From: an uncultured Roseateles sp.
GTDB lineage: Bacteria > Pseudomonadota > Gammaproteobacteria > Burkholderiales > Burkholderiaceae_C
Assembly (NCBI RefSeq): GCF_913777145.1
Contig: NZ_CAJYPS010000024.1
Coordinates: forward strand, 124,001-188,000
Reading direction: 5' to 3'
DNA length: 64,000 nucleotides
The notes under the pieces were generated by a model, which saw nothing but the letters and a program-made list of their open reading frames with translations, had not been told where the DNA came from and ran no database searches. Position 1 is the first letter of the stretch. Each line of letters opens with the position of its first letter. Position numbers and translations under genes: made by a program. Positions 28,814 to 55,685 of the stretch are shown here, piece by piece.

Positions 28814-28839
28814 GTCATCTTTCACGACCTGAACCGCCC

Positions 28840-29187: not shown

Positions 29188-29207
29188 CTCGGGGTTTTCA
29201 CCAGGTC

Positions 29208-29234: not shown

Positions 29235-29281
29235 GTGCAGGGGAAGGCGGCCACCGGCCGTCCCATCACGAGGAGATCCCC

Positions 29282-30135: not shown

Positions 30136-30150
30136 GCATAGGAGACCCCC

Positions 30151-30561: not shown

Positions 30562-30572
30562 GGAGACCCGCG

Positions 30573-32747: not shown

Positions 32748-32772
32748 TACGGGTCTGGAAGACAGTCGGGAC

Positions 32773-33414: not shown

Positions 33415-34127
33415 CGGTGCTGCAGCAAGGCGCGGGCCGCATCCACCCGCAGCGCCAGCGGGGCCGACTCGTCGTTCAGCACACGTTGCAGGAACTGCCG
33501 CGGATCCAGGTCGGCCGTGGCGGCGGGCGCGGACGCGGGCACAGCCGGCGGCACCGGCATGTCGGCCTGCCGGGCCTGCAGGGCCTGCAGTGCGGCTTCG
33601 AGCGCGGCGGGCGGGATGCTGTCCAGCCGGGCCAGCAGCTCGGCCTGGCCTTCGGGGCTGGGCGGGATGTCCAGCCAGGGCGTGTCGGCAAACACCGGCG
33701 CCAGGTCCGGCGCGACAAAGGCGGACCACTGCTCGGGCAGGGCCAGCGGCGCCGGCACCAGGGGCGCGCAGGCGGTGGGGGCGGTCAGCGCCGGCAGGCA
33801 CTGCACGCGATGCGGCTCGACCTCGGCCAGGTAGCGCGCCTGCAGCCCGGCCAGCAGCGCGGCCGCGCGCTCGGCCGGCAGCGGCTGCTGCAGCGAGAAC
33901 CACAGCTGCAGGCCCTCGCCCGACACCGCGATGGCCGGCGCCGGCCACTGCAGGTCCAGCTGCACGCCGCGCCACAGCGGCGCCAGCGCGGCCCAGCCGG
34001 CCGGCCGGCCCAGGGCCAGCACCGGCGCGCGGGTCTCGCCCGCCGGGCCGCGCAGCGCGGGCGCGCCATCGGCCTGGGGCAGCAGGTAGAGGCGCCGCAG
34101 CTCGGCGGCGAGGCGGTCGGCGCTCAT
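33411..34127 (-). CDS. Hypothetical protein
   Basis: 238 residues, not recognised. It is soluble, without a signal peptide, and starts MSADRLAAELRRLYLLPQ. Its middle has strand-like sequence (GVQLDLQWPAPAIAVSGEGLQLWFSL) and its C-terminal third is alanine- and proline-rich helical sequence ending LRVDAARALLQHR. Support for it being real comes from four-base overlaps with genes on both sides and from codon use like its neighbours. Nothing points to a function beyond co-expression with the peptidase and phosphatase. Confidence 0.7.
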   Translation of the reverse strand: MSADRLAAELRRLYLLPQADGAPALRGPAGETRAPVLALGRPAGWAALAPLWRGVQLDLQWPAPAIAVSGEGLQLWFSLQQPLPAERAAALLAGLQARYLAEVEPHRVQCLPALTAPTACAPLVPAPLALPEQWSAFVAPDLAPVFADTPWLDIPPSPEGQAELLARLDSIPPAALEAALQALQARQADMPVPPAVPASAPAATADLDPRQFLQRVLNDESAPLALRVDAARALLQHR

Positions 34128-35884: not shown

Positions 35885-36471
35885 CAGTTCTCGGGGCCGC
35901 TGGCGGCGGTGGCGGCGGCGCTGCTATTGGTGTCGCGCAGCATGCGCTGCATCAGCACGAAAAAGCGGTCGTAGAAGGTGTGGGCAGTGATGGTCTCGGA
36001 CGCGACCTTGACCAGCGAGTCGTCGGTGGACGACAGCGGCACCGAGATGGACCCTATCGCGCTGACGCCCAGGCTGGCCGCGGTGGAGCTCTTCTTCAGC
36101 GCGTACTTATCCTGCTGCGCACTGACATAGGCGGTGGCGACCTGCTGGTCCGGCCCGTCGCCCACGCACACCACGTGAAAGCCCAGCTCCACATGCAGGT
36201 CGCCCGCCGGCTGGAAGCTCTTGGTGCCCTGCACCACGCCGCCGCCGGACTTGCTGATCACATAGCCCTGGCTCAGCAGCGCGCGCCGCGCGGCCTCGCA
36301 GGTGTTGTCCACGCTGGCATCGAACAGGCGCGAGAAGGTCTCGTCGGCGCTGAAGCTCTCGCCCTGGTAGACGGACTTCTTGGCGACGTCCTTGGAGTTC
36401 GGGGTCATTGCACAGCCCGCCAGCAGGGCGCCGGCCAGGGCCACAAGGGGGATCAGGAACGCACGGTGCAT
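35884..36471 (-). CDS. DUF2242 lipoprotein
   Basis: 195 residues. The N-terminus MHRAFLIPLVALAGALLAGC is a lipoprotein signal with lipobox LAGC. The body, with SVDNTCEAARRALLSQGYVI and the C-terminal helix TFYDRFFVLMQRML, fits the DUF2242 family of proteobacterial outer-membrane or periplasmic lipoproteins of unknown function. The start was chosen at the signal sequence; the frame is open seven codons further. It is the first gene of the operon with the M14 peptidase. Confidence 0.85.
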   Translation of the reverse strand: MHRAFLIPLVALAGALLAGCAMTPNSKDVAKKSVYQGESFSADETFSRLFDASVDNTCEAARRALLSQGYVISKSGGGVVQGTKSFQPAGDLHVELGFHVVCVGDGPDQQVATAYVSAQQDKYALKKSSTAASLGVSAIGSISVPLSSTDDSLVKVASETITAHTFYDRFFVLMQRMLRDTNSSAAATAASGPEN

Positions 36472-36671
36472 TGCGCCATTATTCAGCCGCACGGCCAGGG
36501 TTTTCTTTCAGGCTTGTGTCGCCCGCGGGGAAATCCCTTGCCCGCGCGCCCTGACCCCAGGCAAGCCCGGCGCTGCCCATGACCAACGGCATGCCCCCCT
36601 GGCCCAACGAGGGTGGGCCACCGCACCGACAACCTGCAGAATCGCCCGGTCAAATTCCCCCAGGAGATCCC

Positions 36672-37145
36672 ATGTCCGCGCCCGAAGGCTCCCCCAGCGT
36701 CGTCCTCGTCCAACGCCAGGACTACCAGTTCGAGCACCACTACGCGCCCGAGCTGCCGGTGCTGCTGGCCGACGAACCGGCACCGCTGGGCACCGGCCTG
36801 GGGCCGGATCCGGTGGAACTGCTGGCCTCGGCCGTGGGCAACTGCCTGAGCGCATCGCTGCTGTTCGCGTTCCGCAAGTACAAGCAGGCGCCGGACCCGC
36901 TGCGCACCGAAGTGCGCGCCCAGGTGGGCCGCAACGAGCGCAACCGCATGCGCGTGCTGGGCCTAGACGTGCAGCTGACGCTGGGTGTGCCGGCCGCCAG
37001 CCTGGAACATGTGGAGCGCGTGCTGGGCAGCTTCGAGGACTACTGCACCGTCACGCAGAGCATCACCGGCTCGGTGCCGGTGGCGCTGACCGTGATGGAC
37101 AGCACCGGCGCGGTGCTCAAGGCGCCGGACACCGCCGCGGGCTGA
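36672..37145 (+). CDS. OsmC family protein
   Basis: 157 residues of the OsmC/Ohr fold, which reduces organic hydroperoxides with two cysteines. Both are present: C58 in LASAVGNCLSASLLFAFRKY and C125 in EDYCTVTQS, the OsmC spacing. The start follows CAGGAG at 36661-36666. The Ohr subgroup and the OsmC-like YhfA group cannot be told apart by eye. It is divergent from the DUF2242 gene and convergent with glutamate dehydrogenase. Confidence 0.9.
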   Translation: MSAPEGSPSVVLVQRQDYQFEHHYAPELPVLLADEPAPLGTGLGPDPVELLASAVGNCLSASLLFAFRKYKQAPDPLRTEVRAQVGRNERNRMRVLGLDVQLTLGVPAASLEHVERVLGSFEDYCTVTQSITGSVPVALTVMDSTGAVLKAPDTAAG

Positions 37146-37148
37146 CGC

Positions 37149-37172
37149 AAAAAAGCCCGCGCGTGGCGGGCT
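37149..37172 (-). terminator. Terminator of glutamate dehydrogenase (minus strand)
   Basis: A 7-bp stem (37154-37160 with 37166-37172) followed, on the minus strand, by six T. It lies between the convergent osmC-type gene and gdhA and would also fold in the other direction, without a T tract. Confidence 0.85.
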
Positions 37173-37229
37173 GGGTGTCGGTCGCGGCTGGCCTCGCCCG
37201 CGTGCAGCGAGGCGAGGCCAGACGAGGGG

Positions 37230-38501
37230 TCAGGGATAGAGCCCACGCTCCTCGCGAGCCTGCAGCACGCGCGAGCAGGCCACGGTGAAGGCCGCGGTGC
37301 GCAGCGGGATCTTGTGCTGCTCGCCGGTTTCCCAGATGTGCTTGAAGGCACCGATCAGGATCTTGTCCAGGCGGACATTGATCTCGTCCTCGGTCCAGAA
37401 GAAGCTGGAGAAATCCTGCACCCACTCGAAGTAGGACACGGTCACGCCGCCGGCGTTCGCAATCACGTCCGGCACCACGACGATGCCGCGGTCGGCCAGC
37501 ACCGCCTCGCCGTCCGGCGTGGTCGGGCCGTTGGCGCCTTCCAGCACCAGGCGGGTGCGGATACGGGCGGCACGGTCGGCGGTGATCTGGCCTTCCAGGG
37601 CCGCCGGGATCAGCACATCGCTCTGCACATCCCAGAAGTTCTCGTTGGCGATCTCCTCGCCGCCCTTGAAGCCGCCGATGCCGCGGTACTTGGCGACGTG
37701 GTCCAGCAGCGCGGCCATGTCGAAGCCGTTCTCGTTGAGCAGCGTGCCGGTGTGGTCCTGCACGACGACGACCTTGGCACCGTTGGCAGCGAACAGCTTG
37801 GCCGCGATGGAGCCCACATTGCCGAAGCCCTGCACCGCGACGCGCGCGCCTTCCATGTTGATGTTGAGGCGGCGCATCGCCTCACGGCCCACGACGAACA
37901 CGCCGCGGCCGGTGGCGGCCACGCGGCCCAGCGAGCCCCCCAGTTCGATGGGCTTGCCGGTGACGACGCCGGTCGCGGTGGCGCCGGTGTTCATCGAATA
38001 CGTGTCCATCATCCAGGCCATGATCTTGCCGTTGGTGTTCACGTCCGGCGCCGGGATGTCCTGCTGCGGGCCGATGATGATGCCGATCTCGCTGGTGTAG
38101 CGGCGCGTGACCTTCTCCAGCTCCTTCATGGACAGCAGCGACGGATCCAGGCGGATGCCGCCCTTGGCACCGCCGTAGGGCAGGTTGACCGCGGCGTTCT
38201 TGATGGTCATCCAGGCCGACAGCGCCATCACTTCTTCCAGCGTCACATCGGGGTGGTAGCGCACGCCGCCCTTGCCCGGGCCCCGGGTCAGGCTGTGCTG
38301 CACACGGTAGCCCTCGTAGTGGGCGATGGTGCCGTTGTCCAGCTCGATGGGGATGTCCACGATCAGCGCGCGCTTGGGGCGGCGCAGGGTCTCGACCCAA
38401 CGGCTGAGGCGGCCCAGGTAGGGCTCGACCGCGTCGATCTGCGACAGATAGGTGCCCCAGGGGCTGTTGCGCGAGGGCGTGATGAACGAAAGATTGGGCA
38501 T
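37230..38501 (-). CDS. gdhA: Glu/Leu/Phe/Val dehydrogenase (NAD(P)-glutamate dehydrogenase)
   Basis: 423 residues. It catalyses reversible oxidative deamination of glutamate to 2-oxoglutarate and ammonia. The catalytic lysine region [15 protein letters not shown], the substrate segment [14 protein letters not shown] and the Rossmann motif [12 protein letters not shown] are intact. The start [12 protein letters not shown] follows GGAGCAG and gives a length like other Burkholderiales enzymes of this hexameric class; upstream in-frame starts exist. Coenzyme preference cannot be read reliably. Confidence 0.95.
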
Positions 38502-38696
38502 CAACTGCTCCGAAACTTTGAAGTGGGGCGAACGGTAGCCCGAAGGGTGGCTTCGTCTCAACAACTTGTCTAGCCAAGTGTTCATGCGCCTATGCGCGGC
38601 TTGCATGGCCCCGGCGGCGTGGGGCGGATTTCACATCCGGCCGTTCGCCCCGGGCTGCCATCATGCCTTTGCGGCATCACCGCATACCATCCGTCG

Positions 38697-40691
38697 ATGA
38701 CCTCGCTGGACCTCGCCCTGCTGTATCTGATGGCTGCCGTACTGGGCGTGGTGGTCTGCCGCTCGCTGAAGCTGCCGCCCATGCTGGGCTATCTGGCGGT
38801 GGGCGTCGTGATCGGGCCGAACGCGCTCGCGTTCGCGCACGATTCGGCCGGCATCCGCTATCTGGCGGAGTTCGGCGTGGTGTTCCTGATGTTCTCCATC
38901 GGCCTGGAGTTCAACCTGCCCAAGCTGCGCGCGCTGCGCACCGCGGTGTTCGGCATCGGCATGGCCCAGGTGCTGCTGACCGTGCTGGGGGCGATCGCCG
39001 GCAACGGGTTGCTGGTGCTGCTGTTCGGCTGGCTGGGCACGACCTGGCAGCTGGGCTGGCAGGGGGCGCTGGTGCTGGGGGCGGCGGTGGCCATGAGCAG
39101 CACGGCCATCGTCGTGAAGCTGATGGCCGAGCGGCTGGAGCTGGAGAGCCCGCACGGCAAGCTGGTGGTGGGCGTGCTGCTGTTCCAGGATCTGGCCGTG
39201 GTGCCGCTGCTGGTGCTGATCCCGGCGCTGAACAGCAGCGGCGCCGAGATGGCCACCGCGCTCGCACTGGCCGGCCTCAAGGCCTGCGTGCTGCTGGGCC
39301 TGCTGCTGTACGGCGGCCAGCGCCTGATGCGCTGGTGGCTCACGCTGGTGGCGCGGCGCAAGAGCGACGAGCTGTTCATGCTCAACCTGCTGCTGGTGAC
39401 GCTGGGCCTGGCCTGGCTGACCGAGCATTTCGGGCTGAGCCTGGCGCTGGGCGCCTTCATCGCCGGCATGCTGATCTCGGAGACCGAGTACCGCCACCAG
39501 GTGGAGACCGACATCCGGCCCTTCCACGATGTGCTGCTGGGCCTGTTCTTCATCACCATCGGCATGCGGCTGGACTGGCGCCCGCTGTGGGACCAGTGGC
39601 CGCTGGTGGCGCTGCTGCTGATGCTGCCGGTGCTGGCCAAGTTCGCGCTGATCGCAGCGCTGGCGCGGCTGTTCAAGGCCGAGCCGGGCGTGGCGCTGCG
39701 CACCGGCCTGTATCTCGCGCAGGCCGGCGAGTTCGGCTTCGTCGTGCTGACGCTGGGCGCCGAGCACGGCCTGGTGGCGGCCCAGTGGGTCAGCCCGGTG
39801 CTGGCCAGCATGGTGCTGTCCATGCTGCTGACGCCGCTGATCGTGATGAACGCCAACCGCATCGTGATGAAGCTGTCCAGCAGCGACTGGCTGATGCAGT
39901 CGGTGGCGCTGACCAGCATCGCGAAGAAGGCGATCAAGAAGGAGGCCCACGTCATCATCTGCGGCTACGGCCGCAGCGGGCAAAACCTGGCCCGGCTGCT
40001 GGGCGGCGAGGGCATTCCCTACATGGCGCTGGACCTGGACCCCGACCGCGTGCGCCAGGCCGCCGCGGCCGGCCAGAGCGTGGTGTTCGGCGACGCGGCC
40101 AAGGTGCAGAGCCTGATGGCGGCCGGCCTCGCGCGCGCCAGCGCGGTGGTGGTGAGCTACCACGACACCCCCTCGGCGCTGAAGATCCTGCATCTGGTGC
40201 AGACCCACGCGCCGCAGGTGCCGGTGATCGTGCGCACCATTGACGACAGCGACCTGGAGCGGCTGCGCGCGGCCGGCGCCACCGAGGTCGTGCCCGAGGC
40301 CATCGAGGGCTCGCTGATGCTGGCCTCGCACGCGCTGGTGCTGGTGGGCGTGCCCATGCGCCGGGTGATACGCATCACACGCGACGCGCGCGACCGCCGC
40401 TACAGCCTGCTGCGCGGCTACTTCCACGGCGCCGACGACGGCAGCGGCGACGAGCTGGAGCAGGAGCGTCTGGCCTCGGTCACGCTGGCCCAGGCCAGCC
40501 CCTGGGCCGGCCACCAGCTGGGCGAGCTGGCGCTGCACGCGGTGGGCGTGCAGGTGGTGACGGTGCGACGCGCCAGCGGCGGCGTGGCACCGGCCTCGGA
40601 CGAGCTGGCGCTGGCCGGCGGCGACACCCTGGTGCTGGCCGGCCTGCCGGCGGCGCTGGGCGCGGCCGAGGCCAAGCTGCTGGGCGGCTGA
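38697..40691 (+). CDS. CPA2 family potassium/proton antiporter (KefB/KefC-like) with TrkA domains
   Basis: 664 residues. About 12 to 13 membrane helices (residues 1-385) form a CPA2 exchanger with FLMFSIGLEFNLPKLR and LGAFIAGMLISET. Then come a TrkA-N Rossmann domain (VIICGYGRSGQNLARLL; NAD-binding) and a TrkA-C domain to the end. Such proteins export potassium in exchange for protons and are gated by nucleotides or thiol conjugates. No KefF/KefG partner is adjacent. It is divergent from gdhA with a 195-bp gap. Confidence 0.92.
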   Translation: MTSLDLALLYLMAAVLGVVVCRSLKLPPMLGYLAVGVVIGPNALAFAHDSAGIRYLAEFGVVFLMFSIGLEFNLPKLRALRTAVFGIGMAQVLLTVLGAIAGNGLLVLLFGWLGTTWQLGWQGALVLGAAVAMSSTAIVVKLMAERLELESPHGKLVVGVLLFQDLAVVPLLVLIPALNSSGAEMATALALAGLKACVLLGLLLYGGQRLMRWWLTLVARRKSDELFMLNLLLVTLGLAWLTEHFGLSLALGAFIAGMLISETEYRHQVETDIRPFHDVLLGLFFITIGMRLDWRPLWDQWPLVALLLMLPVLAKFALIAALARLFKAEPGVALRTGLYLAQAGEFGFVVLTLGAEHGLVAAQWVSPVLASMVLSMLLTPLIVMNANRIVMKLSSSDWLMQSVALTSIAKKAIKKEAHVIICGYGRSGQNLARLLGGEGIPYMALDLDPDRVRQAAAAGQSVVFGDAAKVQSLMAAGLARASAVVVSYHDTPSALKILHLVQTHAPQVPVIVRTIDDSDLERLRAAGATEVVPEAIEGSLMLASHALVLVGVPMRRVIRITRDARDRRYSLLRGYFHGADDGSGDELEQERLASVTLAQASPWAGHQLGELALHAVGVQVVTVRRASGGVAPASDELALAGGDTLVLAGLPAALGAAEAKLLGG

Positions 40692-40787
40692 TCGGGGCGG
40701 TGTCTCGAATGCGGCAGATTGCCGCCTCGGTGACAAGCGCCGGCGCAACGCTGCGACACACTGCGGCCATCCGATTGCGGAGCCACC

Positions 40788-42050
<1,263 letters not shown>

Positions 42051-45171: not shown

Positions 45172-46542
45172 CTACTTGCCGATGCAGAAGCTGCTGAAGA
45201 TCACGCCCAGCAGCTCGTCCGCCGAGAAGGCGCCGGTGATCTCGCCGAGCGCGTCATGCGCCAGGCGCAGCTCCTCGGCCAGAAGGTCCAGCGCGGCGTC
45301 GCGCTGCGCGGCCACCTCGCGCGCCAGCGCCAGGTGCTCGGCCGTGCGGGCCAGCGCCTGCACATGGCGCTCGCGGGCGATGAACAGGCCCTCGGGCACG
45401 GCCTGCCAGCCCGCGGTGGCCAGCAGGCGCTGGCGCAGCGCTTCCAGGCCCTCGCCGGTCTTGAGGCTGAGCGCGATCTCGCCGGCCGGCGGCTCGCCCA
45501 GATCGGTCTTGTTGAACACCTGCACGATGCGGCCCGCGTCCACAGGGGCCAGCCGCGCACGTATGCGCTCGTCCTCGGCCTCGTAGTCGGCCTGGCCCAC
45601 ACGGCCCAGGTCGTGCAGGAACAGCACCACGTCGGCCTCGGCAATCGCGTCCCAGCTGCGTGACACGCCGATGCGCTCCACCTCGTCGGCCGTGTCGTCG
45701 CGCAGGCCGGCGGTGTCGGTGATGTGCAGCGGCACACCTTCGATCTGAATCGTCTGGCTGACCTTGTCGCGCGTGGTGCCGGGGATGGGCGTGACGATGG
45801 CCAGCTCGGCACCGGCCAGTGCGTTCAGCAGCGAGCTCTTGCCCACATTGGGCTGGCCGGCCAGCACCACCTTGAGGCCGTCGCGCAGCAGTGCACCCTG
45901 CCGGGTGCGCGCCTGCACCGCGCCCAGTTGGGCGGTCAGGCGATCCAGCCGACCGAAGGCGTCGGCCTTCTCCAGGAAGTCGATCTCCTCCTCGGGGAAG
46001 TCCAGCGTCGCCTCGACCAGCATGCGCAGCTGGATCAGCTGGTCGCGCAGCAGGCCCACCTCGTGGCTGAGCGCGCCGCCCAACGCGCGGCTGGCGCTGC
46101 GCGCGGCGGCCTCGGTGCTGGCGTCTATGAGGTCGGCCACGGCCTCGGCCTGGGCCAGGTCCAGCTTGCCGTTCAGGAACGCGCGCTGCGTGAACTCGCC
46201 CGGCTCGGCCAGGCGCACGCCCAAGTCCGCGCCGGCCTCGATGACACGCGCCAGCAGCAGCTGCATCACGACGGCGCCGCCATGGGCCTGCAGCTCCAGC
46301 ACATGCTCGCCGGTGTAGGAATGCGGCGCCGGGAAGTGCAGCGCCAGGCCCTGGTCTATGGGCGCACCGGCCGCATCGCGGAAGGGCAAATAGTGGGCCT
46401 CGCGCGGGCGCAGCGGGCGGGCGCAGACCGCTAAGATCAACGGGGACAGGTCTTGCGGTGAAGACACGCGCACGATGCCCACCGCGCCCCGACCGGGAGC
46501 GGTGGCGATGGCAGCGATGGAGTCGGCATGGCGAGACAGCAT
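45172..46542 (-). CDS. mnmE: tRNA uridine-5-carboxymethylaminomethyl(34) synthesis GTPase MnmE
   Basis: 456 residues. With MnmG it modifies the wobble uridine of several tRNAs. The tetrahydrofolate-binding N-terminal domain ([21 protein letters not shown]), helical domain and inserted G domain are present: G1 [10 protein letters not shown]2 TTRD, G3 DTAGLRD, G4 NKTD. The C-terminus is the essential CIGK. The start MLSRHADS was chosen because it matches family N-termini; the frame is open 23 codons further. In this order of bacteria it commonly sits in the yidC/rnpA neighbourhood; here about 7.4 kb of kinase and lipoprotein genes separate them. Confidence 0.97.
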
Positions 46543-46601
46543 GGCCCTATTGTCGAACCAGGCGCCGCCCCGGCCCTTCCCTTTCCCGCCGCCGTTCACC
46601 C

Positions 46602-47138
46602 GTGAGTTCATCGCCTAACGCTGACCCTCCTCTACCGGCCGTCGACGCCGGCCTGCGCGAAGAGCTCTACCGGGAGCTGCGCCAGATGGCGCGCCAGCGG
46701 CTGCGACGCAGCGGCCCCCTGACCCTGTTGGACACCACGGCGCTGGTGCACGAGAGCTGGCTCAAGCTGGAGCGCCAGGCCACCTGGCAGGGCATGGCGC
46801 GTGATCACTTCCTGGCCTATGCCGCCACGGTGATGCGCTCCATCGTGGTGGACTATGCGCGCGCGCGCCTGGCCCAGCAGCGCGGCGGCGGCGCCACCCA
46901 TGTGCCGCTGGACGAGCTGCCCACGCTGGCGCACCGCGACGAGGAGTACCTGCAGATCCACGACGCGCTCAGCGCGCTGGAGCGTCATGACCCGCGCCTG
47001 GCGCGTCTGGTCGAGCTGCGCTTCTTCGTCGGACTGGAAGAGACCGAGTGCGCCGAGGCGCTGGGGCAGTCGCGTCGCACCGTGCAGCGCGACTGGCAGA
47101 AGGCCCGTGCGCTGCTGTGGGACGCCCTGCAGCCATGA
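46602..47138 (+). CDS. ECF-type sigma factor (TIGR02999/ECF43-like) linked to a Ser/Thr kinase
   Basis: 178 residues from a GTG at 46602 (the frame continues upstream into antisense mnmE; no good ribosome site is visible). Region 2 is [18 protein letters not shown] through [19 protein letters not shown]; region 4 is [20 protein letters not shown] and [17 protein letters not shown]. The length and the SIVVDYAR and LPTL features recall the TIGR02999 (Sig-70_X6) group. Such sigma factors are typically encoded beside receptor-like Ser/Thr kinases that activate them by phosphorylation, as shown for a Vibrio relative. Its stop overlaps the kinase start (ATGA). Confidence 0.9.
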
Positions 47139-49945
47139 ACCCCGCGCTGCTGGCGCACTGGGCCGAGCTGGAACCCCTTCTGGATCACGCGCTGACGCTG
47201 CCGCCCGAGCAGCGCCAGCAGTTTCTGGACACCCTGCCAGCTGAGCAGCAGCGCTGGCGGGACGCGCTGCAGCGGCTGCTGCGGGCCGAGGCCGAGGCGG
47301 TCGAGGCCGGCTTCCTGGAGCACGCCGCCACCCTGACCTCGGGCACGAGCTCGGGGAGCCCCGGCGGCGCGACCGCCTGGCAGGCCGGTCAGCAGGTGGG
47401 CCCCTGGGTGCTCATCGAAGAACTGGGCCGCGGCGGCATGGCCAGCGTGTGGCGGGCGCGCCCGCACAGCGGCGACTTCCAGCGTGAGGTGGCACTCAAG
47501 CTGCCGCACAGCCCCGCGCCCGGCTGGCTGGAGCGCCTCAAGCGTGAGCGTGACCTGCTGGCGCGGCTGCAGCACGCGGGCATCGCGCGGCTGTACGACG
47601 CCGGCGTGGATGCCCAGGGCCTGCCCTGGCTGGCGATGGAATGCGTGCAGGGGCGCGACATCCTGGCCTGGTGCGACACCCGGCGGGCCGACCTGCACCA
47701 GCGCCTGGACCTGCTGCTCCAGGCCGCCGATGCGCTGCAGTACGCACACAGCCGCCTGGTGCTGCACCGGGACATCAAGCCCGCCAACGTGATGGTGCAG
47801 GACGACGGCCAGGTGCGGCTGCTGGACTTCGGCATCGCACGCAGCCTGGCGGCCGCCGACGGCGAAGCCGCGCTGACACAGCTGGGCCAGCGCCCCATGA
47901 CACCGGAATACGCCTCGCCCGAGCAGGTGCGCGGCGAGGAGCCCGGCATCGCCAGCGACGTCTACGCCTTTGGCGTGCTGGCCTACCGGGTGCTTGCCGG
48001 CGCCAGCCCCTACGCAGCGGCTGCGCCGACCTCGCGCCACGCGCTGGAACGCGCCGTGCTGGAGACCGAGCCCTCCGCGCCCTCCGCTGCGGCGGGGGAG
48101 GCGGCCACCGCCCGGGCGCTGCGCGGCGACCTGGACGCCATCGTGCTGAAGGCGCTGGCCAAGGAGCCCGCGCGCCGCTACCCGACGATGGACGCACTGG
48201 CCGCCGACCTGCGCCGCCATCTGGCAGGCGAGCCTGTGCAGGCGCGCCCGCCGAGTTGGCGCTACCGTGCCGGCCGCTTCGTCGTGCGCCACCGCTGGGC
48301 GGTCGCGGCGTCGACGCTGGCGGTGCTGGCGCTGGCGGGGACGGCCGGCTGGGCCTTGCGCAATGCGCACGACCGCGCGCTGGCCGCACGCCGGGCCGAG
48401 GCGCAGTACGCCTTCTTCCGGCAGCTGATCGTCCACGACGAATCCGAGATGTCCGACGTGGCCCACCGCGATGAACGCGTGCAGGATCTGCTCGAGCGCG
48501 CGGCCGTCCGCCTGCCGGACTCGCTGGGTGACGCGCCCGAGGCCCGCTATCAGCTGATGCGCGACCTGGCGCCCATGCTGGACGCGCTGGGAGACGGCGA
48601 GGCTGCGATACGCCTGCTGCAGACCCAGCGCGATCAGGCGCGCAGCAGCCACGGCGAGCACAGCGTCGAGGCGGCCAAGCCGCTGCTGATGCTGGCGCAG
48701 CTGCAGTGCGAGCAACGCAACGACTTCCGCTGCGCGCACGCGCTGGTGCTGCAGGCTTGGCACGCATTCCGTCAGGCCGGCTTGGGCGATGCCGAATGGC
48801 TGGCGGGCAGCGAGGCGCTGGTCGGCTACTTCGGCTGGCGTGCCCGAGGCCGCATAGAGCCGGAGGACATCGAGCATGTGGAGCACGCGGCCGCGCTGCT
48901 GCGCGCCCATCCGCAGACCAAGAGCCTGGCCAATGATGCGCTGGCCCTGCTGTCCGAGATGCAGCTGGCCGCCGGCCACCCCGAACAGGCGCAGGCGGCC
49001 GCCCGGGAGGGCGTGGCCTTCAACCTGCGCTGGCTGGGGCGCGACAACTGGCATACCGCCGAACTGATGAGTCAGGCCAGCAACGCCGCGCTGGCGCGGG
49101 GCCAGTTGGACGAGGCGCTGGACTGGCGGGAACAGGCGCTCGCGATACACGACCGGGTCTGGCCTCGCGGACACCCCTTCCAGGTGCGGGATCGCGCGCT
49201 GCTGGCACGGCTGCTGGTGCTGGGCCGCGACCCCGGCCGGGCGATGCAACTGCTGGCCGAGGCGCGCCGCCTGTCCGGCCAGAGCGGCAGCTCCCTGGGC
49301 CAGCGGCAGCTGCAGCGCCTGCGCCTGGCCGAGCTGATGGTGGCCAACGTGCTGGGTCGCTGGCCGACGGCCGAACCCGACTGCCGGCCCGACATCACGC
49401 CGGCCGAAGACGCGCTGCGCGCGAGCTGGTGGCAGTCCTGTGCGCAGCGCGCACTGCTGGCGGGCGACCCCGGCGCGGCGGATGCCCTGCTGGCCAAGGC
49501 CGAACAGCTGCCACCGCCAGCCGCGCCGGGCTATGTCGAGCTGCGTCGCGCCGAATGGCGGGTCGCACGGGGCGACGCGCCGGCCGCGCAAGCCGCGCTG
49601 AACGCCCTGTTGCGCGAAGCGCCCAGACCCGATGTGCTGCTGCGTGCCGACATCTGGCTGGCGCTGAGCCTGGTCGCGCCGCAGGCCGTGGAGCAGGCGG
49701 CGCTGGCGGCCGAACGAGCGGCGCTGCCCCCCGGCGCTGAGGAAGCAGGCGCCAGGATGGACGAGGCCCGTGCGCGCGCGCTGTGGGTGGCGGGCGAACC
49801 GGAGGACGCCCGCCGCGCACTGGCCGCGGCGCTGCGCTGGCGCGAGAGTCAGCCGACTCAGTCGGGCGGGCTCTGGCTGGCGCGCGTACAGCGCCTGCAG
49901 CGGGACTGGCGCCCGCCCCAGGCCCCGGCGCCGGGCATGCGCTGA
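47135..49945 (+). CDS. Transmembrane Ser/Thr protein kinase with extracytoplasmic TPR-like domain
   Basis: 936 residues. A cytoplasmic N-terminal segment of about 80 residues is followed by a PknB-type kinase domain (about 87-350; GRGGMASVW, VALKLP, LHRDIKPANVM, LDFGIARS, TPEYASPEQ). One membrane helix lies near 390-410 (WAVAASTLAVLALAGTAGWAL), then more than 500 residues of helical repeats that should lie in the periplasm. All catalytic residues are intact. It is translationally coupled to the ECF sigma gene, so the likely flow is periplasmic signal, kinase, sigma phosphorylation, new transcription. The signal is unknown. Confidence 0.92.
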   Translation: MNPALLAHWAELEPLLDHALTLPPEQRQQFLDTLPAEQQRWRDALQRLLRAEAEAVEAGFLEHAATLTSGTSSGSPGGATAWQAGQQVGPWVLIEELGRGGMASVWRARPHSGDFQREVALKLPHSPAPGWLERLKRERDLLARLQHAGIARLYDAGVDAQGLPWLAMECVQGRDILAWCDTRRADLHQRLDLLLQAADALQYAHSRLVLHRDIKPANVMVQDDGQVRLLDFGIARSLAAADGEAALTQLGQRPMTPEYASPEQVRGEEPGIASDVYAFGVLAYRVLAGASPYAAAAPTSRHALERAVLETEPSAPSAAAGEAATARALRGDLDAIVLKALAKEPARRYPTMDALAADLRRHLAGEPVQARPPSWRYRAGRFVVRHRWAVAASTLAVLALAGTAGWALRNAHDRALAARRAEAQYAFFRQLIVHDESEMSDVAHRDERVQDLLERAAVRLPDSLGDAPEARYQLMRDLAPMLDALGDGEAAIRLLQTQRDQARSSHGEHSVEAAKPLLMLAQLQCEQRNDFRCAHALVLQAWHAFRQAGLGDAEWLAGSEALVGYFGWRARGRIEPEDIEHVEHAAALLRAHPQTKSLANDALALLSEMQLAAGHPEQAQAAAREGVAFNLRWLGRDNWHTAELMSQASNAALARGQLDEALDWREQALAIHDRVWPRGHPFQVRDRALLARLLVLGRDPGRAMQLLAEARRLSGQSGSSLGQRQLQRLRLAELMVANVLGRWPTAEPDCRPDITPAEDALRASWWQSCAQRALLAGDPGAADALLAKAEQLPPPAAPGYVELRRAEWRVARGDAPAAQAALNALLREAPRPDVLLRADIWLALSLVAPQAVEQAALAAERAALPPGAEEAGARMDEARARALWVAGEPEDARRALAAALRWRESQPTQSGGLWLARVQRLQRDWRPPQAPAPGMR

Positions 49946-49960
49946 TCTTTCCCTCGTGCG

Positions 49961-49987
49961 ATGGCGCTCGCGGGTGCTGCTTCTCGT
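49961..49987 (+). promoter_or_regulatory. Putative ECF promoter, copy A
   Basis: ATGGCGCT at 49961-49968, 12 bases, TTCTCGT at 49981-49987. The same two blocks at identical spacing occur at 51044 and 52082. The second block contains CGT, as in many ECF -10 elements. Between it and the lipoprotein gene at 50305 lies the palindromic element. Confidence 0.65.
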
Positions 49988-50009
49988 CTATGCAGGCAAG
50001 GCCCTCCCT

Positions 50010-50279
50010 AGGGAGGGTCTGCAAAACCCCTGTAGGCCGCGGCGAGGTCTTTGCCGGATGCGGGGCAAGGCGCGGACCGCCGCCCAGGCTCGTGCCTGGG
50101 CAAGGTTCGCAACGCCGAACCGCGCCGGCAAAGCCACGCCCCGAAGGGTTGGCGAGAACACCGGCCCGCGCGGGTGTTGCGTCGCTCGCTGGGGCGCCCA
50201 GCCCCAGCTTCGCGACACGCCTACTCGCGGGCCGGTGCTCTCGCCAACGCGGCCTGCAGGGGTTTTGCAGGCCCTCCCT
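50010..50279. repeat. Nested palindromic element in the leader of the metzincin-like gene
   Basis: This stretch holds no plausible gene. An outer inverted repeat of 32 bp with two mismatches (50010-50041 and 50248-50279) encloses a 23-bp pair with one mismatch (50148-50170 and 50226-50248), a perfect 9-bp pair (50049-50057 and 50125-50133), a perfect 8-bp hairpin (50082-50101) and a perfect 7-bp hairpin (50189-50207). A further CCCTCCCT/AGGGAGGG hairpin overlaps its left edge. It is organised like the element at 6314-6627 but differs in sequence. As RNA it would fold into a branched structure in the 5' leader. Confidence 0.7.
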
Positions 50280-50304
50280 GGCAACCTGAATGGAGAAGCA
50301 ACGA

Positions 50305-51015
50305 ATGAGGCCCATGATTTCGACCCTGCCCCTGGTGGCCGCGCTGGCGGCCTGTGGCGGCGGTGGCAACGCGACCGACCGCGCCGACCCGGCCCCCGAC
50401 GTGAGCGTGAGCGACGCCCAGGTCATGGCCGACCTCAAGTCCAGCAACATCGACTTCCTGCCGACCAACCGGCCCGCGGGCACCTGGCGCTGGCCGAGCA
50501 CCCCGGCCCAGCACATCCCGGTGCTCGTGACGCCGCCCACCGCCGGCAACGCGACGGAGCAGGACTACGCGGCCAAGACGCAGACGGCCATCACGACGAT
50601 CAACCGCCGGCTGACCGGCCTGCTGGTGCTGGATGCGGTGACCGTCGCCCCGGCCAGCGGCAACTACATCCACGTCACCTACGGCACGTCCTATGTGCCG
50701 CCGGGCTCCAGCGACTACCAGAGCTACTGTGCCAATGTCGCGACGGCGCCCGGCGTGGGCAACCCCATACAGCCGGGCAGCGACAACGGCATCGCGTCCC
50801 GCCCCGTCCATGTGAATCTCGGCAACGGCCATTGCGATGTCACCCAGGCCATCGTGACCCATGAGTTCGGCCACGCGCTGGGGCTGGCCACGCACTTTGC
50901 CGGCTTCGGCAACGACGGCCCGGAGTCGGCCTTCTGGGACGTGCTCAGCACGCTCTACGCCAATCCGGCGGGCACGCCGGCGGGGAATGTGCTCATTCGA
51001 CGCGCGGCACGCTGA
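50305..51015 (+). CDS. Putative metzincin-like zinc metalloprotease lipoprotein
   Basis: 236 residues. The start at 50305 is favoured by GGAGAAG at 50292-50298; ATG at 50290 is in frame. The signal ends at lipobox LAAC followed by GGGG. Near residues 186-196 it reads HEFGHALGLATH, the HExxHxxGxxH zinc motif of metzincins such as matrixins. The expected Met-turn methionine is not seen; the matching segment reads WDVLSTLYANP. It could be an active surface protease or a degenerate relative. A copy of the shared promoter motif lies upstream, separated by the palindromic element. Confidence 0.8.
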   Translation: MRPMISTLPLVAALAACGGGGNATDRADPAPDVSVSDAQVMADLKSSNIDFLPTNRPAGTWRWPSTPAQHIPVLVTPPTAGNATEQDYAAKTQTAITTINRRLTGLLVLDAVTVAPASGNYIHVTYGTSYVPPGSSDYQSYCANVATAPGVGNPIQPGSDNGIASRPVHVNLGNGHCDVTQAIVTHEFGHALGLATHFAGFGNDGPESAFWDVLSTLYANPAGTPAGNVLIRRAAR

Positions 51016-51043
51016 CCACCAGGTCGAGCGGCAAAGGCGCCGC

Positions 51044-51070
51044 ATGGCGCTTGTCGGCGCCGGTTCTCGT
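51044..51070 (+). promoter_or_regulatory. Putative ECF promoter, copy B
   Basis: ATGGCGCT at 51044-51051, 12 bases, TTCTCGT at 51064-51070, 64 bases before the start at 51135. A perfect 7-bp hairpin (51087-51093 with 51100-51106) lies between them in the leader. Confidence 0.68.
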
Positions 51071-51134
51071 GAATGCAGAAGGACATCCCCGGCAAGCACG
51101 CCGGGGTCTCTTGAGCAAACAAGGAGAACAGACC

Positions 51135-52049
51135 ATGACTCGTGTTTCAACCCTGGCCCTGAGCCTGGTGATGGCGGCGGCCCTGACGGCCTGCGGCGGC
51201 GGCGGCGATGACAGCAGCACGCCCAACAGCGGCGGCACCTCGTCGGGGGGCTCGTCCGGCAGTGGGTCTTCAGGTAGCGGCTCCACGGGCAGCAGCGGCG
51301 CCGCGCCCGTCACCGCCGCGCTGGCATCCAGCATCTGCGGCGGCAGCAGCTCCGCCAACGCGTCGTTCGACGTGGTGTTCCCGGGGGCCAATGGCATCGC
51401 GCGTCGCTCGTCCCGCGCCGTGGCGGTCCATGGCCAGCCCACCGACGCCCAGCAATGCCTGGCCATGGCCGGCTCCACCGCGCAGAACGATCTGAACCAG
51501 CTGGGCATCGTCACCACCGACGCGTGGGCCAACAACATCGGCTACTTCGAGTGGGTGATCAACAGCCTGGGCAACCTGAGCGCCACCAACCCGGTGTCCG
51601 GCGCGATCAAGCTCAACCAGCAACTCTTCATCGCCTGCTCCACCAGCTCCGACGCGATCAAGTACCTGGGCGTGAAGTCGTCCACGCTGGTCAACACCGA
51701 CATCTACGGCACCAAGGAGGCCGCCACGGTGGCCCGCGGCACGGGCTTCACCTCGCTGGAATGCCTGTCCGACGGCAAGGGCGGTTACCAGGTGGGCAAC
51801 GGCGGCGCCGTGGCCACCTTCGCAGCCGACGGCAGCCTGAGCGTGACCGAGGCCGGCAAGACGGCACTCAGCGTCAGCGCCGCCAGCGTGCCGGCGCTGT
51901 TCTCCGACGACGGCTACACGGTGAACGGCACGACCTTCCGCTGGGGCCTCTACCAGGTGCCGGCAGGCGGTGGCAGCAAGCAGGTCATCGTGCACACCAC
52001 CAAGAAACCTGACGGCAGCTACGGCGTGCTGGCCTTCGTGCAGCCCTGA
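51135..52049 (+). CDS. Hypothetical lipoprotein with Gly/Ser-rich linker
   Basis: 304 residues, not recognised as a named family. The lipoprotein signal (LALSLVMAAALTAC) is followed by GGGGDD and a long Gly/Ser linker, then a domain from about residue 60 with three further cysteines and strands such as GYFEWVINSLGNLS and the ending GSYGVLAFVQP. The start has AAGGAGA seven bases upstream. The linker suggests a domain held away from the membrane. It belongs to the group of three genes sharing the ATGGCGCT...TTCTCGT motif. Confidence 0.8.
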   Translation: MTRVSTLALSLVMAAALTACGGGGDDSSTPNSGGTSSGGSSGSGSSGSGSTGSSGAAPVTAALASSICGGSSSANASFDVVFPGANGIARRSSRAVAVHGQPTDAQQCLAMAGSTAQNDLNQLGIVTTDAWANNIGYFEWVINSLGNLSATNPVSGAIKLNQQLFIACSTSSDAIKYLGVKSSTLVNTDIYGTKEAATVARGTGFTSLECLSDGKGGYQVGNGGAVATFAADGSLSVTEAGKTALSVSAASVPALFSDDGYTVNGTTFRWGLYQVPAGGGSKQVIVHTTKKPDGSYGVLAFVQP

Positions 52050-52081
52050 CACCGCGCCAGACGCGGACGATGCCTGCGCGC

Positions 52082-52108
52082 ATGGCGCTTGGCGCCCGGA
52101 CTTCTCGT
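52082..52108 (+). promoter_or_regulatory. Putative ECF promoter, copy C
   Basis: ATGGCGCT at 52082-52089, 12 bases, TTCTCGT at 52102-52108, 54 bases before the start at 52163. A 6-bp hairpin (52119-52124 with 52130-52135) sits in the leader, as in copy B. Confidence 0.68.
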
Positions 52109-52162
52109 TAAGCGGATCGAGCCCCTCGTGGGCTCTGTCTGCAACCCGTCCCGGAGCCCCGC

Positions 52163-52975
52163 ATGAGCCTCGCCCCGCCCGTCGCCGCCGCCACCCCGCA
52201 GCGCGGCACCATTCTTCGTGACACCCAGGCCGGCCCTGGCCTGATCAGCGTGGGCGGCCGCCAGCTGGCCTTCACGCTGGAGCAGCACTGGGCGTCGGAG
52301 CGCCCCCCGGTCACCGGCGCGCGCGTGGACGCCACCTTCGACGGTGAAGAGCTGCGTCAGCTGCGCCTGGTGGACGATACCCAGATCGCCAAGGAGCTGG
52401 CCACGCAGGCCGCCGGGCAGGTGGCCGCCCAGGGTCAGGCTTTGCTGGGCCGTGCGCTGGCCGAGTTTGGCAGGCTGCCGCTCGTAGCCCTGGTGGCCCT
52501 TTGGCTGGGCTGGTGGGTGTTCGACTGGGTGTCGGTGCGCGTCATCGGCACCCATGTCGCCAGTTACAGCTTCTGGGACATGCTGAAGATGCTGGCCAGC
52601 GGCAATGCGCTGGAGGCCATGCAGTATTCGCGCAGCAGCCTGGGCTTCTGGAACTTCGTCGCCCTGCTGTGCGCCGTGGCGCCGCTCGCGCCGCTGCTCA
52701 CCCGCCACCGCCTGGCCAGCCTGGGCCTGGCCGCACCGCTGGCCTTCATGGCATTGCAGGGCGCCCGGCTGTATTGGGGCATCTCCAGCGCAGTCAGCGA
52801 GATGCAGCAGCAGATGGCCGGCTTCGGCGGCCAGATGGGTCGCATGTTGCGCGACGTCGGCAGCGAGATGCAGGCCGAGATCTTCAAGTCCATCACCCTG
52901 GGCCTCGGCCTGTATCTGTCGCTGGCCGCCGCCGCCGTGCTGGCCTTCTTCGCCCTCGTGCGCCTGCGCCGCTGA
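52163..52975 (+). CDS. Hypothetical membrane protein
   Basis: 270 residues, family not recognised. The N-terminal 95 residues are soluble and contain repeated short strands (GTILRDTQAGPGLISVGGRQLAF, GARVDATFDGEELRQLRLVDD), resembling small OB- or NfeD-like segments. Four hydrophobic segments follow (LPLVALVALWLGWWVFDWV, FWNFVALLCAVAPLAPLL, LASLGLAAPLAFMAL and LYLSLAAAAVLAFFALV). CCGGAG precedes the ATG. It probably forms a transcription unit with the lipoprotein gene 45 bases downstream. Confidence 0.78.
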   Translation: MSLAPPVAAATPQRGTILRDTQAGPGLISVGGRQLAFTLEQHWASERPPVTGARVDATFDGEELRQLRLVDDTQIAKELATQAAGQVAAQGQALLGRALAEFGRLPLVALVALWLGWWVFDWVSVRVIGTHVASYSFWDMLKMLASGNALEAMQYSRSSLGFWNFVALLCAVAPLAPLLTRHRLASLGLAAPLAFMALQGARLYWGISSAVSEMQQQMAGFGGQMGRMLRDVGSEMQAEIFKSITLGLGLYLSLAAAAVLAFFALVRLRR

Positions 52976-53020
52976 ACGCCACTCGCGCTCCAACACATTC
53001 ACTGCTGACCGGAGATTCAC

Positions 53021-53791
53021 ATGAAGCAAGACCTGTCCCCCCTGGCCCTGGCCGCCTGCGCCGTCCTGTCCCTGGGCCTGTTGAGCGCCTGCAGCAAGAA
53101 GGACGAGGCCAGCTCGTCCGCCGCTGCTGACGCCGCCCCAAGCCTCGCCAGTGCCCGCGACCCCGAGGCACTCAAGAAGGCCGCCGAAGCCCAACGCGTG
53201 GCCAGCCTGCCGCAGGCCAACCCGGCCACGCCGGCCGAGGCCTACAAGCTGATCGACTCGGGCAACCAGCTGATGTACCTGTACTACGCGGTGTCAGCCA
53301 TGCCCGCGGACATGGGCCAGATCGCCGAGGCGCTGTCGCAGGACTACCGCGCCACGCAGGATCAGTTCAAGCGCCAGGACATCCTGAAGGTGCTGGAGCC
53401 GCGCGTGAAGGCCGAGGTCGCCGCCGCCGGCGAGCACCGCTACGTGATCTGGGAGGCCGACAGCAACCTGATCGACCACTACGATTTCGAGCGCAAGCGC
53501 TTCCCGGTGCGCGACGGCTTCTGGAAGGGCAACAGCCGCAGCTACTACAGCGACAACAGCCGCTACCAGATCAGCTTCACGGGCGCCGAGAAGCTGCAGA
53601 GCCTGCCCGTGGCCGACGAGGCCATGGCCCGCGAGATCGAGGACAAGGTGAACAAGTACGGTGCGCTGACGCTGCGCGTCTACGCGTTCGCGCAGGACGC
53701 CGACCTCAATGAGAAGGTCGTCAAATCTCAGGTGGTGAAGCTGGAGCTGCTCGATAAGAAGGGCAAGCTGCTGGCCAGCACGGCACTCTGA
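53021..53791 (+). CDS. Hypothetical lipoprotein
   Basis: 256 residues. The signal MKQDLSPLALAACAVLSLGLLSAC ends in lipobox LSAC, followed by charged and Ala/Ser-rich sequence and a soluble domain (EAYKLIDSGNQLMYLYYAVSAMP, RYVIWEADSNLIDHYDFERKRFP, RYQISFTGAEKLQSLP). The family is not recognised. A good ribosome site (CCGGAG) precedes it. It has no copy of the shared promoter motif of its own, so it is likely co-transcribed with the membrane protein upstream. Confidence 0.82.
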   Translation: MKQDLSPLALAACAVLSLGLLSACSKKDEASSSAAADAAPSLASARDPEALKKAAEAQRVASLPQANPATPAEAYKLIDSGNQLMYLYYAVSAMPADMGQIAEALSQDYRATQDQFKRQDILKVLEPRVKAEVAAAGEHRYVIWEADSNLIDHYDFERKRFPVRDGFWKGNSRSYYSDNSRYQISFTGAEKLQSLPVADEAMAREIEDKVNKYGALTLRVYAFAQDADLNEKVVKSQVVKLELLDKKGKLLASTAL

Positions 53792-53903
53792 GCGCCGCCC
53801 CGCTGGCGCGGGGGAGGCTGGGGGCGGCAGCTCTCATGAGCCCGCCCGCCAGCCATTGGATCTCTGCCCCGCTGGCGCTCATTGAAGCGCGGCGAGCGGG
53901 CAC

Positions 53904-53929
53904 AAAAAAGCCCCCGAGACCGGGGGCTT
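53904..53929 (-). terminator. Terminator of the rpmH-yidC transcript
   Basis: On the minus strand a perfect 9-bp stem (53921-53929 with 53908-53916) and four-base loop run into six T. It lies 17 bases after the yidC stop, between convergent genes. Confidence 0.92.
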
Positions 53930-53945
53930 CTTCATGGGGTGTGAA

Positions 53946-55685
53946 TCAGTTCACGCCCAGGCGCTTGTTGATCAGCCACTGCTGAGCGATGGACAGGATG
54001 TTGTTCGTCAGCCAGTACAGCACCAGGCCGGACGGGAACACGAAGAACATCACGCCGAACACCACCGGCATGATCCACATCATCTTCTGCTGCATGGGGT
54101 CGGCAGCCGGCGGGTTGAGCTTCACCTGCAGCAGGCTGGACGCCATCATCAGCAGCGGCAGGATGAAGTAGGGATCGCGTACCGACAGGTCGGTGATCCA
54201 GCCCAGCCACGGCGCCTGGCGCATTTCCACCGTGGACAGCAGCACCCAGTACAGCGCGATGAAGAAGGGCATCTGCAGGAAGATGGGCAGGCAGCCGCCC
54301 ACCGGGTTGACCTTCTCTTCCTTGTAGATGCGCATCATCTCCTGCTGCATCTCCTGCGGCTTGTCCTTCAGGCGCTCGCGCAGCTCGTTGATGCGCGGCG
54401 CCACGGACTTCATCTTGGCCATGGAGCGGTAGGCGCTGGCGTTAAGCCAGTAGAACGCGATCTTCAGCAGCACCACCAGACCGATGATGGACCAGCCCCA
54501 GTTGCCGATGAAGCCGTGCAGCTTGTCCAGCAGCCAGAACAGCGGCTCGGCCAGGATGCGCAGCCAGCCGTAGTCCTTCACCAGCGGCAGGCCCGGGGCC
54601 AGCTTGGCGAGCTTGTTCTCTTCCTGCGGGCCGGCGAACAGCGTGGCCTCGTGGGCCTCGCTGGCGCCTGCGGCCAGCGTGGGCAGCGTGAACACCATGC
54701 CGGTGGCATAGGTGTCGGCCTTCACGCCCGGCTGGCCGGGCAGCTTGCGCACGAAGAACTCGCGGGCCTGACTGTCGTTCTGCAGCCAGGCACTCGCGAA
54801 GTAATGCTGGACCATCGCGACCCAGCCGTCGTTCGCGCGCTTCTCGATGTCCACCTCGCGGTTCTCGGCCGCGCGCTTGTCGATGTCCTTGAACTCGATC
54901 TTCTGGAAGTGCGACTTGTCGGTGTAGAGCGCCGGGCCGGTGAAGGTGGGCGTGAAGCCCGCGCCGCCGGCCACATGGCTGCCGTCGCGCACCAGCTGCA
55001 GGTAGACCTGCGGCGTCACCGGCGCGCCGCCGACGTTGACGATCTCGTGCTTGACGCCCACGGTATAGGCGCCGCGCGTGAAGGTGAAGGTCTTGACCAG
55101 CTTGACGCCACCGACCTCGGCCGACTCCAGGCGCAGCTGCACCTGGCTCTGGCCGGCCGCCAGATCGCGCGGGCCGGGCACGGCCGTCATGGGCGTGGTG
55201 TGGGCGGGCAGCGCGGCGCCGCCGGCCTGCGCATTGACCAGGCCGGTCTGCGCGCGGTAGCTGTTGGCGGCGTCGAACAGCACGACCGGCTCGGGCGTGA
55301 ACGGCGGCTTCTTCTGCAGACCCACCATCTGCATCAGCTGGTCGGTCACCGTGGGATCGGGCGCCGTCAGGTACTTGGGCAGCTCGGCCCGCACCACGTC
55401 ACCGCCCAGCGTGTCGACCGTGACGGTCAGCACGTCGGTGTGCACGACGATCTTCTCGGACGGCGCAGCCGCGGCCACCGCGGCGGGCTGGGCGCCCGGC
55501 GTGGCCGCCGCCGGCGCGACACCGGCCTGCGGAGCCGGCGTAACCGACGGCGCGCTGGCGGCCGGACGCGGGGCGCCGGGGCTGAACAGCGAAGGCTGTC
55601 CGTTGTGCTTCTGCCAACCGTCCCAGAGCAGGACGAGGGACATGGTGAACACCACCCACAGCACGGTGCGGCGAATATCAGTCAT
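53946..55685 (-). CDS. yidC: Membrane protein insertase YidC
   Basis: 579 residues. It inserts and folds inner-membrane proteins, alone or with SecYEG. An N-terminal membrane helix (RRTVLWVVFTMSLVLLWDGWQ), a Pro/Ala-rich linker, the large periplasmic beta domain and five C-terminal helices are present, with the conserved EEKVNPVGGCLPIFLQMPFF and FPSGLVLYWLTNN. Length is normal for gram-negative YidC. It overlaps the yidD end by eight bases, the standard rpmH-rnpA-yidD-yidC arrangement. Confidence 0.97.
   Translation of the reverse strand: MTDIRRTVLWVVFTMSLVLLWDGWQKHNGQPSLFSPGAPRPAASAPSVTPAPQAGVAPAAATPGAQPAAVAAAAPSEKIVVHTDVLTVTVDTLGGDVVRAELPKYLTAPDPTVTDQLMQMVGLQKKPPFTPEPVVLFDAANSYRAQTGLVNAQAGGAALPAHTTPMTAVPGPRDLAAGQSQVQLRLESAEVGGVKLVKTFTFTRGAYTVGVKHEIVNVGGAPVTPQVYLQLVRDGSHVAGGAGFTPTFTGPALYTDKSHFQKIEFKDIDKRAAENREVDIEKRANDGWVAMVQHYFASAWLQNDSQAREFFVRKLPGQPGVKADTYATGMVFTLPTLAAGASEAHEATLFAGPQEENKLAKLAPGLPLVKDYGWLRILAEPLFWLLDKLHGFIGNWGWSIIGLVVLLKIAFYWLNASAYRSMAKMKSVAPRINELRERLKDKPQEMQQEMMRIYKEEKVNPVGGCLPIFLQMPFFIALYWVLLSTVEMRQAPWLGWITDLSVRDPYFILPLLMMASSLLQVKLNPPAADPMQQKMMWIMPVVFGVMFFVFPSGLVLYWLTNNILSIAQQWLINKRLGVN

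Follow-up and report, generated by a model that had tools for sequence, protein, structure and literature searches.

The 64,000-nucleotide stretch analysed here (the window; positions 124,001 to 188,000 of contig NZ_CAJYPS010000024.1 from an uncultured Roseateles sp.) carries a small island between mnmE and yidC, in which the gene for a sigma factor of the extracytoplasmic function (ECF) type is followed by a Ser/Thr kinase gene and then by genes for secreted and membrane proteins. Three copies of a two-block motif, ATGGCGCT-N12-TTCTCGT, lie in the gaps downstream of the kinase gene and are candidate promoters for the genes starting at 50305, 51135 and 52163, referred to here as targets 1, 2 and 3. 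The features of the island and its borders are as follows.

45172–46611, minus strand: mnmE, left island border
46617–47138, plus strand: ECF43-type sigma factor (TIGR02999, E 2.5e-50; PF07638, E 2e-37; DTTA in sigma2.2)
47135–49945, plus strand: Hanks-type Ser/Thr kinase, PknS-like, probably membrane-anchored (Pkinase, E 1.6e-34)
49961–49987, plus strand: putative promoter copy 1, for gene 50305, with a GGCGCTC variant of the -35
50008–50281, no strand assigned: 274-bp palindromic repeat in the leader of target 1, between copy 1 and the gene
50305–51015, plus strand: target 1, lipoprotein-like secreted protein with a zinc-protease-like motif, HEFGHALGLATH, from its sequence
51044–51070, plus strand: putative promoter copy 2, for gene 51135, at a position retained in orthologs
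51087–51106, plus strand: GC-rich stem-loop in the target 2 leader (z -3.5)
51135–52049, plus strand: target 2, lipoprotein with a Gly/Ser linker, from sequence comparison
52082–52108, plus strand: putative promoter copy 3, for gene 52163, with a counterpart in Pelomonas aquatica
52163–52975, plus strand: target 3, membrane protein, with a 68% identical ortholog behind the motif in P. aquatica
53021–53791, plus strand: lipoprotein gene, 45 bp after target 3, in the same order in P. aquatica
53946–55685, minus strand: yidC, right island border

The sigma factor looks like a member of the ECF43 group from its TIGR02999 match, its DTTA motif and the overlapping gene for a PknS-like kinase. DTTA occupies the DAED position of sigma2.2 with the first D retained, and among the ten close orthologs described below the corresponding residues are DTTA in eight, DTTS in L064 and HTTD in L061 (all placed by eye). 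The coding start of the sigma gene is uncertain, an in-frame GTG at ~46602 being possible. The kinase and sigma genes share a 4-base overlap, and the kinase itself has the catalytic motifs HRDIKPANVM and DFG. Its best PDB match is 9EED, the PknS kinase of Xanthomonas citri and partner of the ECF43 factor EcfK, with residues 7-363 aligned on 7-363, including the N-terminal extension. The strongest hydrophobic stretch of the protein lies at residue 390, where a simple hydropathy scale gives a mean of 1.7, and a TPR_12 match at 641-713 is below threshold (25.5 bits against a Pfam cut-off of 30.1).

An earlier note on this DNA had described the coupled sigma/kinase pair, to which the TIGR02999 and Pkinase matches and the 4-base overlap correspond, and the three motif copies, each ahead of the gene named above. 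The copies were recovered in a scan of the window with zero mismatches, starting at 49961, 51044 and 52082, and the leaders, from the end of CGT to the start codon, of 50305, 51135 and 52163 are 317, 64 and 54 nt long, respectively. The note's judgement that this arrangement is unlikely to arise by chance also holds: in a post-hoc control covering every combination of an 8-mer and a 7-mer, 4-30 bases apart, that recurs three or more times in 5 kb of the plus strand, ATGGCGCT-N12-TTCTCGT is the sole such dyad in the window, and none was seen in any of eight first-order shuffles. It is the exact matches only that are remarkable, because the background at up to three mismatches is near chance, with 4 matches in the window compared to 1.5 expected and at least 4 in 7 of 100 shuffles. 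A scan of the window genome (4.39 Mb in 35 contigs, 92% complete) at up to two mismatches yields three exact matches, all before gene starts in this island, together with one 1-mismatch match (C6) and one 2-mismatch match (C14), both within long open reading frames; with the pattern reversed as a control the hits numbered 3+1, compared to 4+1 for the real pattern.

The three gaps are not copies of one recently duplicated segment, as neither flanks nor spacers have extended similarity. The 60-bp upstream flanks agree pairwise at 13, 25 and 16 of 60 positions, the slightly raised value of 25 belonging to copies 1 and 3, the downstream 60 bp agree at 17-21 of 60, and the spacers at 3-6 of 12. The segment GGCGCTT-N15-CGT has the layout of an ECF promoter, with a -35 and a CGT-type -10 close upstream of a gene start. 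No sigma-70-like promoter was found in 46000-54500, a negative of little weight since shuffles gave only 0.3.

The motif is restricted to the island. Among 20 genomes of the genus, exact matches to TGGCGCTT-N11-TTCYCGT are present in three (the window genome, G003 and G006), always at the island, and the fourth island-bearing genome, G012, has a 1-mismatch copy at its island; off-island 1-mismatch hits number 8, compared to 7 for the reversed control. The island is present in these four genomes, yidC lies directly beside mnmE in 14, and the status of G001 is undecidable at a contig end. Close relatives of the sigma factor are found in 7 of 399 genomes of the family, the window genome included. 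In G015 a decayed sigma fragment lies between mnmE and yidC (L161, ~2915-3115; 52% over 67 residues), and neither a kinase match nor the motif at up to three mismatches was found at this locus, a state that probably represents loss of the island.

Conservation was assessed by scanning genome contigs for the sigma protein, in a search seeded by peptide patterns and not exhaustive, which yielded 72 loci: ten close orthologs (70-85% identity, L058-L067), labelled as Roseateles, Pelomonas, Paucibacter, Rubrivivax or Burkholderiales, and 62 distant ones (43-58%, L068-L129). All ten close loci have mnmE upstream and eight have yidC downstream, L059 and L067 ending before it. The contig of L059 ends within the kinase and was left out of the motif count; in all nine close loci that extend beyond the kinase the motif is located shortly past the kinase gene and before a lipoprotein gene, and in P. 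aquatica (L060) a second copy precedes the target 3 ortholog. With the window included this amounts to 13 sites, at 10 of 10 orthologous loci extending beyond the kinase. Start codons were computed for 12 sites, and at 11 of these, each ahead of a lipoprotein or membrane-protein gene, 45-68 nt separate CGT from the start codon; the exception is site 49961, with 317 nt.

A profile constructed from 12 sites (L067 omitted) scores 25.8-34.7 on these sites, 30.4 on L067 and no higher than 13.0 on the rest of the loci, an in-sample comparison. Using the window pattern alone, which is out of sample, no position on either strand outscores the first post-kinase site in five of the nine loci, and in the remaining four this site ranks among the top 2, 3, 3 and 6, such that the positions scoring at least as high, the site itself counted, number 1 to 6 of 25,872-40,954 per locus. 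When window copy 2, L058, L060 and L061 are compared with L063-L066 (L062 and L067 omitted), identity between the groups is 96% in the first block and 68% in the second, compared to 41% for the spacer, 26% for the upstream flank and 31% for the downstream flank.

A kinase domain gene lies downstream of the sigma gene at every one of the 62 distant loci, and most of these loci carry a different motif. A dyad search without a preset motif revealed ATGTCGGGTT-N14-CGTTTTA upstream of the sigma gene and on the opposite strand, and although the first search rule permitted three spacings, all 40 loci found had one identical spacing. At least 14 of its 17 fixed positions match in 53 of the 62 loci, compared to a maximum of 13 for the reversed pattern; the nine loci below 14 are L077 and L096 (13), L086 (12) and six whose titles fall outside the Betaproteobacteria (L114, L115, L120, L124, L127 and L128). 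A divergent gene related to a GGDEF-type protein is present in 52 of the distant loci, 50 of them with the motif at 14 or above, and three loci have the motif at that level without such a gene. Seven sampled products of the divergent gene reach the Pfam GGDEF cut-off, with a GGDEF signature that appears degenerate by eye. The ATG-to-CGT distance is 24 nt in both clades. Read on the sigma strand, this motif could instead be the sigma factor's own promoter, which was considered; the reverse reading is preferred because CGT then falls at the 24-nt distance seen in the window clade and the motif points at a conserved gene.

A scan of 20 genomes for this sister motif at up to one mismatch gave 12 hits and no control hits, with nine of the 12 beside related sigma genes and three elsewhere. 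The best match in the window genome, with two mismatches (G000:C23:37058-37088), is ~150 bp upstream of a sigma paralog; as there are 2 hits at up to three mismatches compared to 2+2 control hits, it is the location of this match that counts. Two of the three hits elsewhere, L200 (G009:C3:528646) and L201 (G017:C110:18942), place a 1-mismatch sister motif before genes whose products begin MDSTSD, and no sigma or kinase relative was found within ~10 kb; these genes are possible distal members of the sister regulon. In the sigma-4.2 recognition helix, the residues before TVQRDW are SRR (5) or ARR (6) at the 11 close loci; 53 of the 62 distant loci have TER there, in a locus set that is biased because TVQRDWQK was among the search peptides.

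Two further elements were noted at the distant loci. A post-kinase dyad, AAGGGCGT-N10-TTCTC, was rejected as a promoter, as it corresponds to conserved coding sequence (KGVVLLFS, read by eye). The hexamer TAGAGT occurs upstream of the sigma gene in 41 of the 62 loci, in 24 of them 7-8 nt before ATG or GTG, and may belong to a housekeeping promoter from which the sigma mRNA would be leaderless; within 330 bp it was found in none of the ten close orthologs.

Taken together, we conclude that the three motifs are very probably promoters recognized by RNA polymerase with the neighboring ECF43-type sigma factor, and that the regulon of this sigma factor is apparently local. This is supported by the retention of the motif in the same position at all ten orthologous loci extending beyond the kinase, the confinement of exact matches in the genus to the island, the ECF geometry of GGCGCTT-N15-CGT, and a sister clade whose motif differs yet keeps the 24-nt distance to CGT. 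The earlier note had proposed the same, including the likeness of CGT to an ECF -10, and two of the checks it had named beforehand, a whole-genome search for the motif and comparison of the loci in related genomes, came out in favor of the proposal.

In the arrangement that we envisage, GGCGCTT (GGCGCTC in copy 1) would be the -35 element and CGT the -10 core, with 15 bases between them. The membrane kinase would be activated from the periplasm, plausibly by a signal that it senses there, and would phosphorylate the sigma factor; the two threonines of DTTA are the simplest candidates for this, perhaps with further sites as in EcfK. The phosphorylated sigma factor would then bind core polymerase, and transcription would start a few bases past CGT, switching on the lipoprotein and membrane-protein genes of the island. 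Sigma dependence, phosphorylation and start sites are what we infer for the window, and the chemical steps are modelled on EcfK/PknS and EcfP/PknT. Even by analogy the DTTA step is uncertain, because an EcfK variant with Ala in place of the corresponding Thr proved functional in an earlier study, and phosphorylated residues in the EcfK linker matter as well (PMC13147305).

Several further points weigh against this interpretation. The region before the sigma gene lacks the motif at all 11 loci, as the earlier note had found for the window, so the usual check of autoregulation fails, and sigma autoregulation through the window motif was rejected. Because sites were picked by motif likeness, the block identities are partly selected, and the independent evidence is site position and leader length. 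The sites number fewer than 13 independent ones, with L065 and L067 near-identical and L063 close to them; L066 has only part of the second block, and L064 matches at 11 of 15 positions. Near the paralogs the window motif shows no enrichment: at the 62 distant loci the mean best profile score is 12.2, compared to 11.0 (standard deviation 1.3) for column permutations, with 9 of 40 column-permuted profiles as high, and TGGCGC-N14..18-CGT was observed 6 times compared to 3.05 expected. Lastly, the full 15-position pattern is exact in 3 of 149 genomes of the order, namely the window genome, G003 (at its island) and G094, which belongs to another family and has no sigma or kinase relative within ~10 kb of the match; it was rejected as a regulon site and is presumably there by chance.

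Alternatively, an unrelated transcription factor might bind the motif as its operator and regulate the island genes jointly, with housekeeping promoters close by. Fixed-spacing two-block motifs are typical of dimeric regulators too, and some copies contain a GGCGC..GCGCC dyad, but the spacing of this dyad varies among copies whereas TGGCGCT..CGT is constant, and the motif is asymmetric and always oriented towards the gene. The exact motif and the island co-occur, the distance to CGT is identical in the sister clade, and the only regulatory-family matches among six island proteins scanned are those of the sigma factor and kinase, all of which makes an operator improbable. The motif might also be a promoter that serves a different sigma factor of the same cell, its nearness to the island sigma being incidental. 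CGT-type -10 elements are common to many ECF groups, and the window genome carries two further relatives of the island sigma; however, the 16 genus genomes without an intact ortholog have no exact match and the nearest paralogs have a different motif, and we regard this explanation as very improbable.

It is scarcely credible that the motif is a non-promoter repeat, dispersed or duplicated, or a site of recombination through which lipoprotein genes move in and out. Such an element would account for the variation in target genes among orthologs and for a leader and signal peptide that can outlast the mature protein, as they are better kept than it between L063 and L065. The copies nevertheless have flanks without extended similarity and no exact counterparts elsewhere in the genome, and both spacer and flanks have drifted between ortholog groups.

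Promoters served by the adjacent sigma factor thus remain the preferred interpretation, and it is the second motif in the sister clade that lifts the finding above routine. A broader formulation is possible, although we would not go so far as to call it probable: a recognition code for ECF43-type sigma factors in which the -35-to-CGT distance is fixed, the -35 switches between GGCGCTT and GTCGGGTT together with the sigma-4.2 helix, and each sigma factor has essentially one local target set, making up a self-contained kinase-sigma-promoter cassette whose cargo is fast-changing lipoproteins in the window clade and a GGDEF-like protein in the sister clade. The two motifs, one per sigma clade, are ready reporters for what the kinases sense, and the two sigma clades are a natural pair for the study of -35 specificity. 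The local regulon also points to envelope lipoproteins whose function should explain the signal.

The description of target 1 in the earlier note as a metzincin-like lipoprotein stands for its zinc-protease-like motif, HEFGHALGLATH, but not for the family assignment. The metzincin signature is HExxHxxGxxH, and the third His of HEFGHALGLATH is at position 12 rather than 11, one residue late; Pfam matches to M6, M43 and M57 are weak and below cut-off. Judged on sequence, target 1 is no canonical metzincin. In L066 the gene behind the promoter (9316-10305) encodes a lipoprotein with an HETTH protease-like motif, seen in its sequence, which together with the window gene at 50305 hints at proteases as recurring cargo. 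The lipoprotein gene at 53021–53791 is perhaps co-transcribed with target 3.

The long leader of target 1 includes the 274-bp repeat, whose inverted ends are 94% complementary. A second full copy, 95% identical, is located at G000:C5:20088-20361, with partial copies elsewhere, and without the repeat the copy-1 leader is 43 nt, near the other leaders in length. A conserved hairpin RNA in the 5' leaders was rejected as a candidate, as z is below -2 in only 2 of 12 leaders (51076-51134 and L064), with a range of +0.07 to -3.48.

Target 2 and its counterparts have a lipoprotein signal and a low-complexity linker in common. The mature part of target 2 is 33-35% identical to its R. oligotrophus counterpart and very different in other orthologs, and by their mature parts these proteins can be grouped: five orthologs are 58-79% alike, the window and R. 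oligotrophus 33% alike, the L063 counterpart is weakly related to the five, and L066 has the HETTH protein described above. A swap of the mature domain was considered and rejected: the bodies are strongly different, yet the two lipoprotein groups have a C-terminal layout in common (hhalign E 0.0043, at a probability of only 8%), so divergence of one lipoprotein family is possible. The two AlphaFold models have mean predicted local distance difference test (pLDDT) values of 39 and 32, too low to use.

ECF promoters have a consensus with a GGAACTT-type -35 and a CGT-type -10. GGCGCTT-N15-CGT matches GGAACTT at 5 of 7 positions, with the central AA replaced by CG and the spacing kept, and GTCGGGTT of the sister clade is further from the consensus than GGCGCTT. 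A spacer range of 15-17 nt has been used for ECF promoters (PMC10880074). No ECF43 promoter motif was found in the available portions of the literature searched, a search that included the string TGTCGGGTT but not the window motif as a string, and that leaves room for the 2021 ECF classification and the 2020 EcfP paper.

Kinase-activated ECF43 sigma factors are numerous yet little studied; an alignment of 1032 sequences has been described (PMC13147305), and according to PMC13147305 and PMC8999054 the acidic DAED/DxxD of sigma2.2 is replaced in this group and a phosphorylated Thr is typical. The window pair resembles EcfK/PknS of X. citri, which is likewise an ECF sigma factor beside a Hanks-type kinase with a cytoplasmic kinase domain (PMC13147305 and PMC6653060). 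EcfK has QATE where the window sigma has DTTA, both departing from DAED with one acidic residue kept, a comparison made by motif only. Unlike the window pair, EcfK/PknS sits in and activates a type VI secretion cluster, whereas the neighbors in the window are lipoproteins in an island between yidC and mnmE. In EcfP/PknT of Vibrio parahaemolyticus, according to PMC8999054 and PMC8103513, a phosphorylated Thr of STTA provides the charge for polymerase binding, and the DTTA of the window sigma parallels this STTA as far as the described motif goes. EcfP/PknT, unlike the window pair, responds to polymyxin and controls resistance to it.

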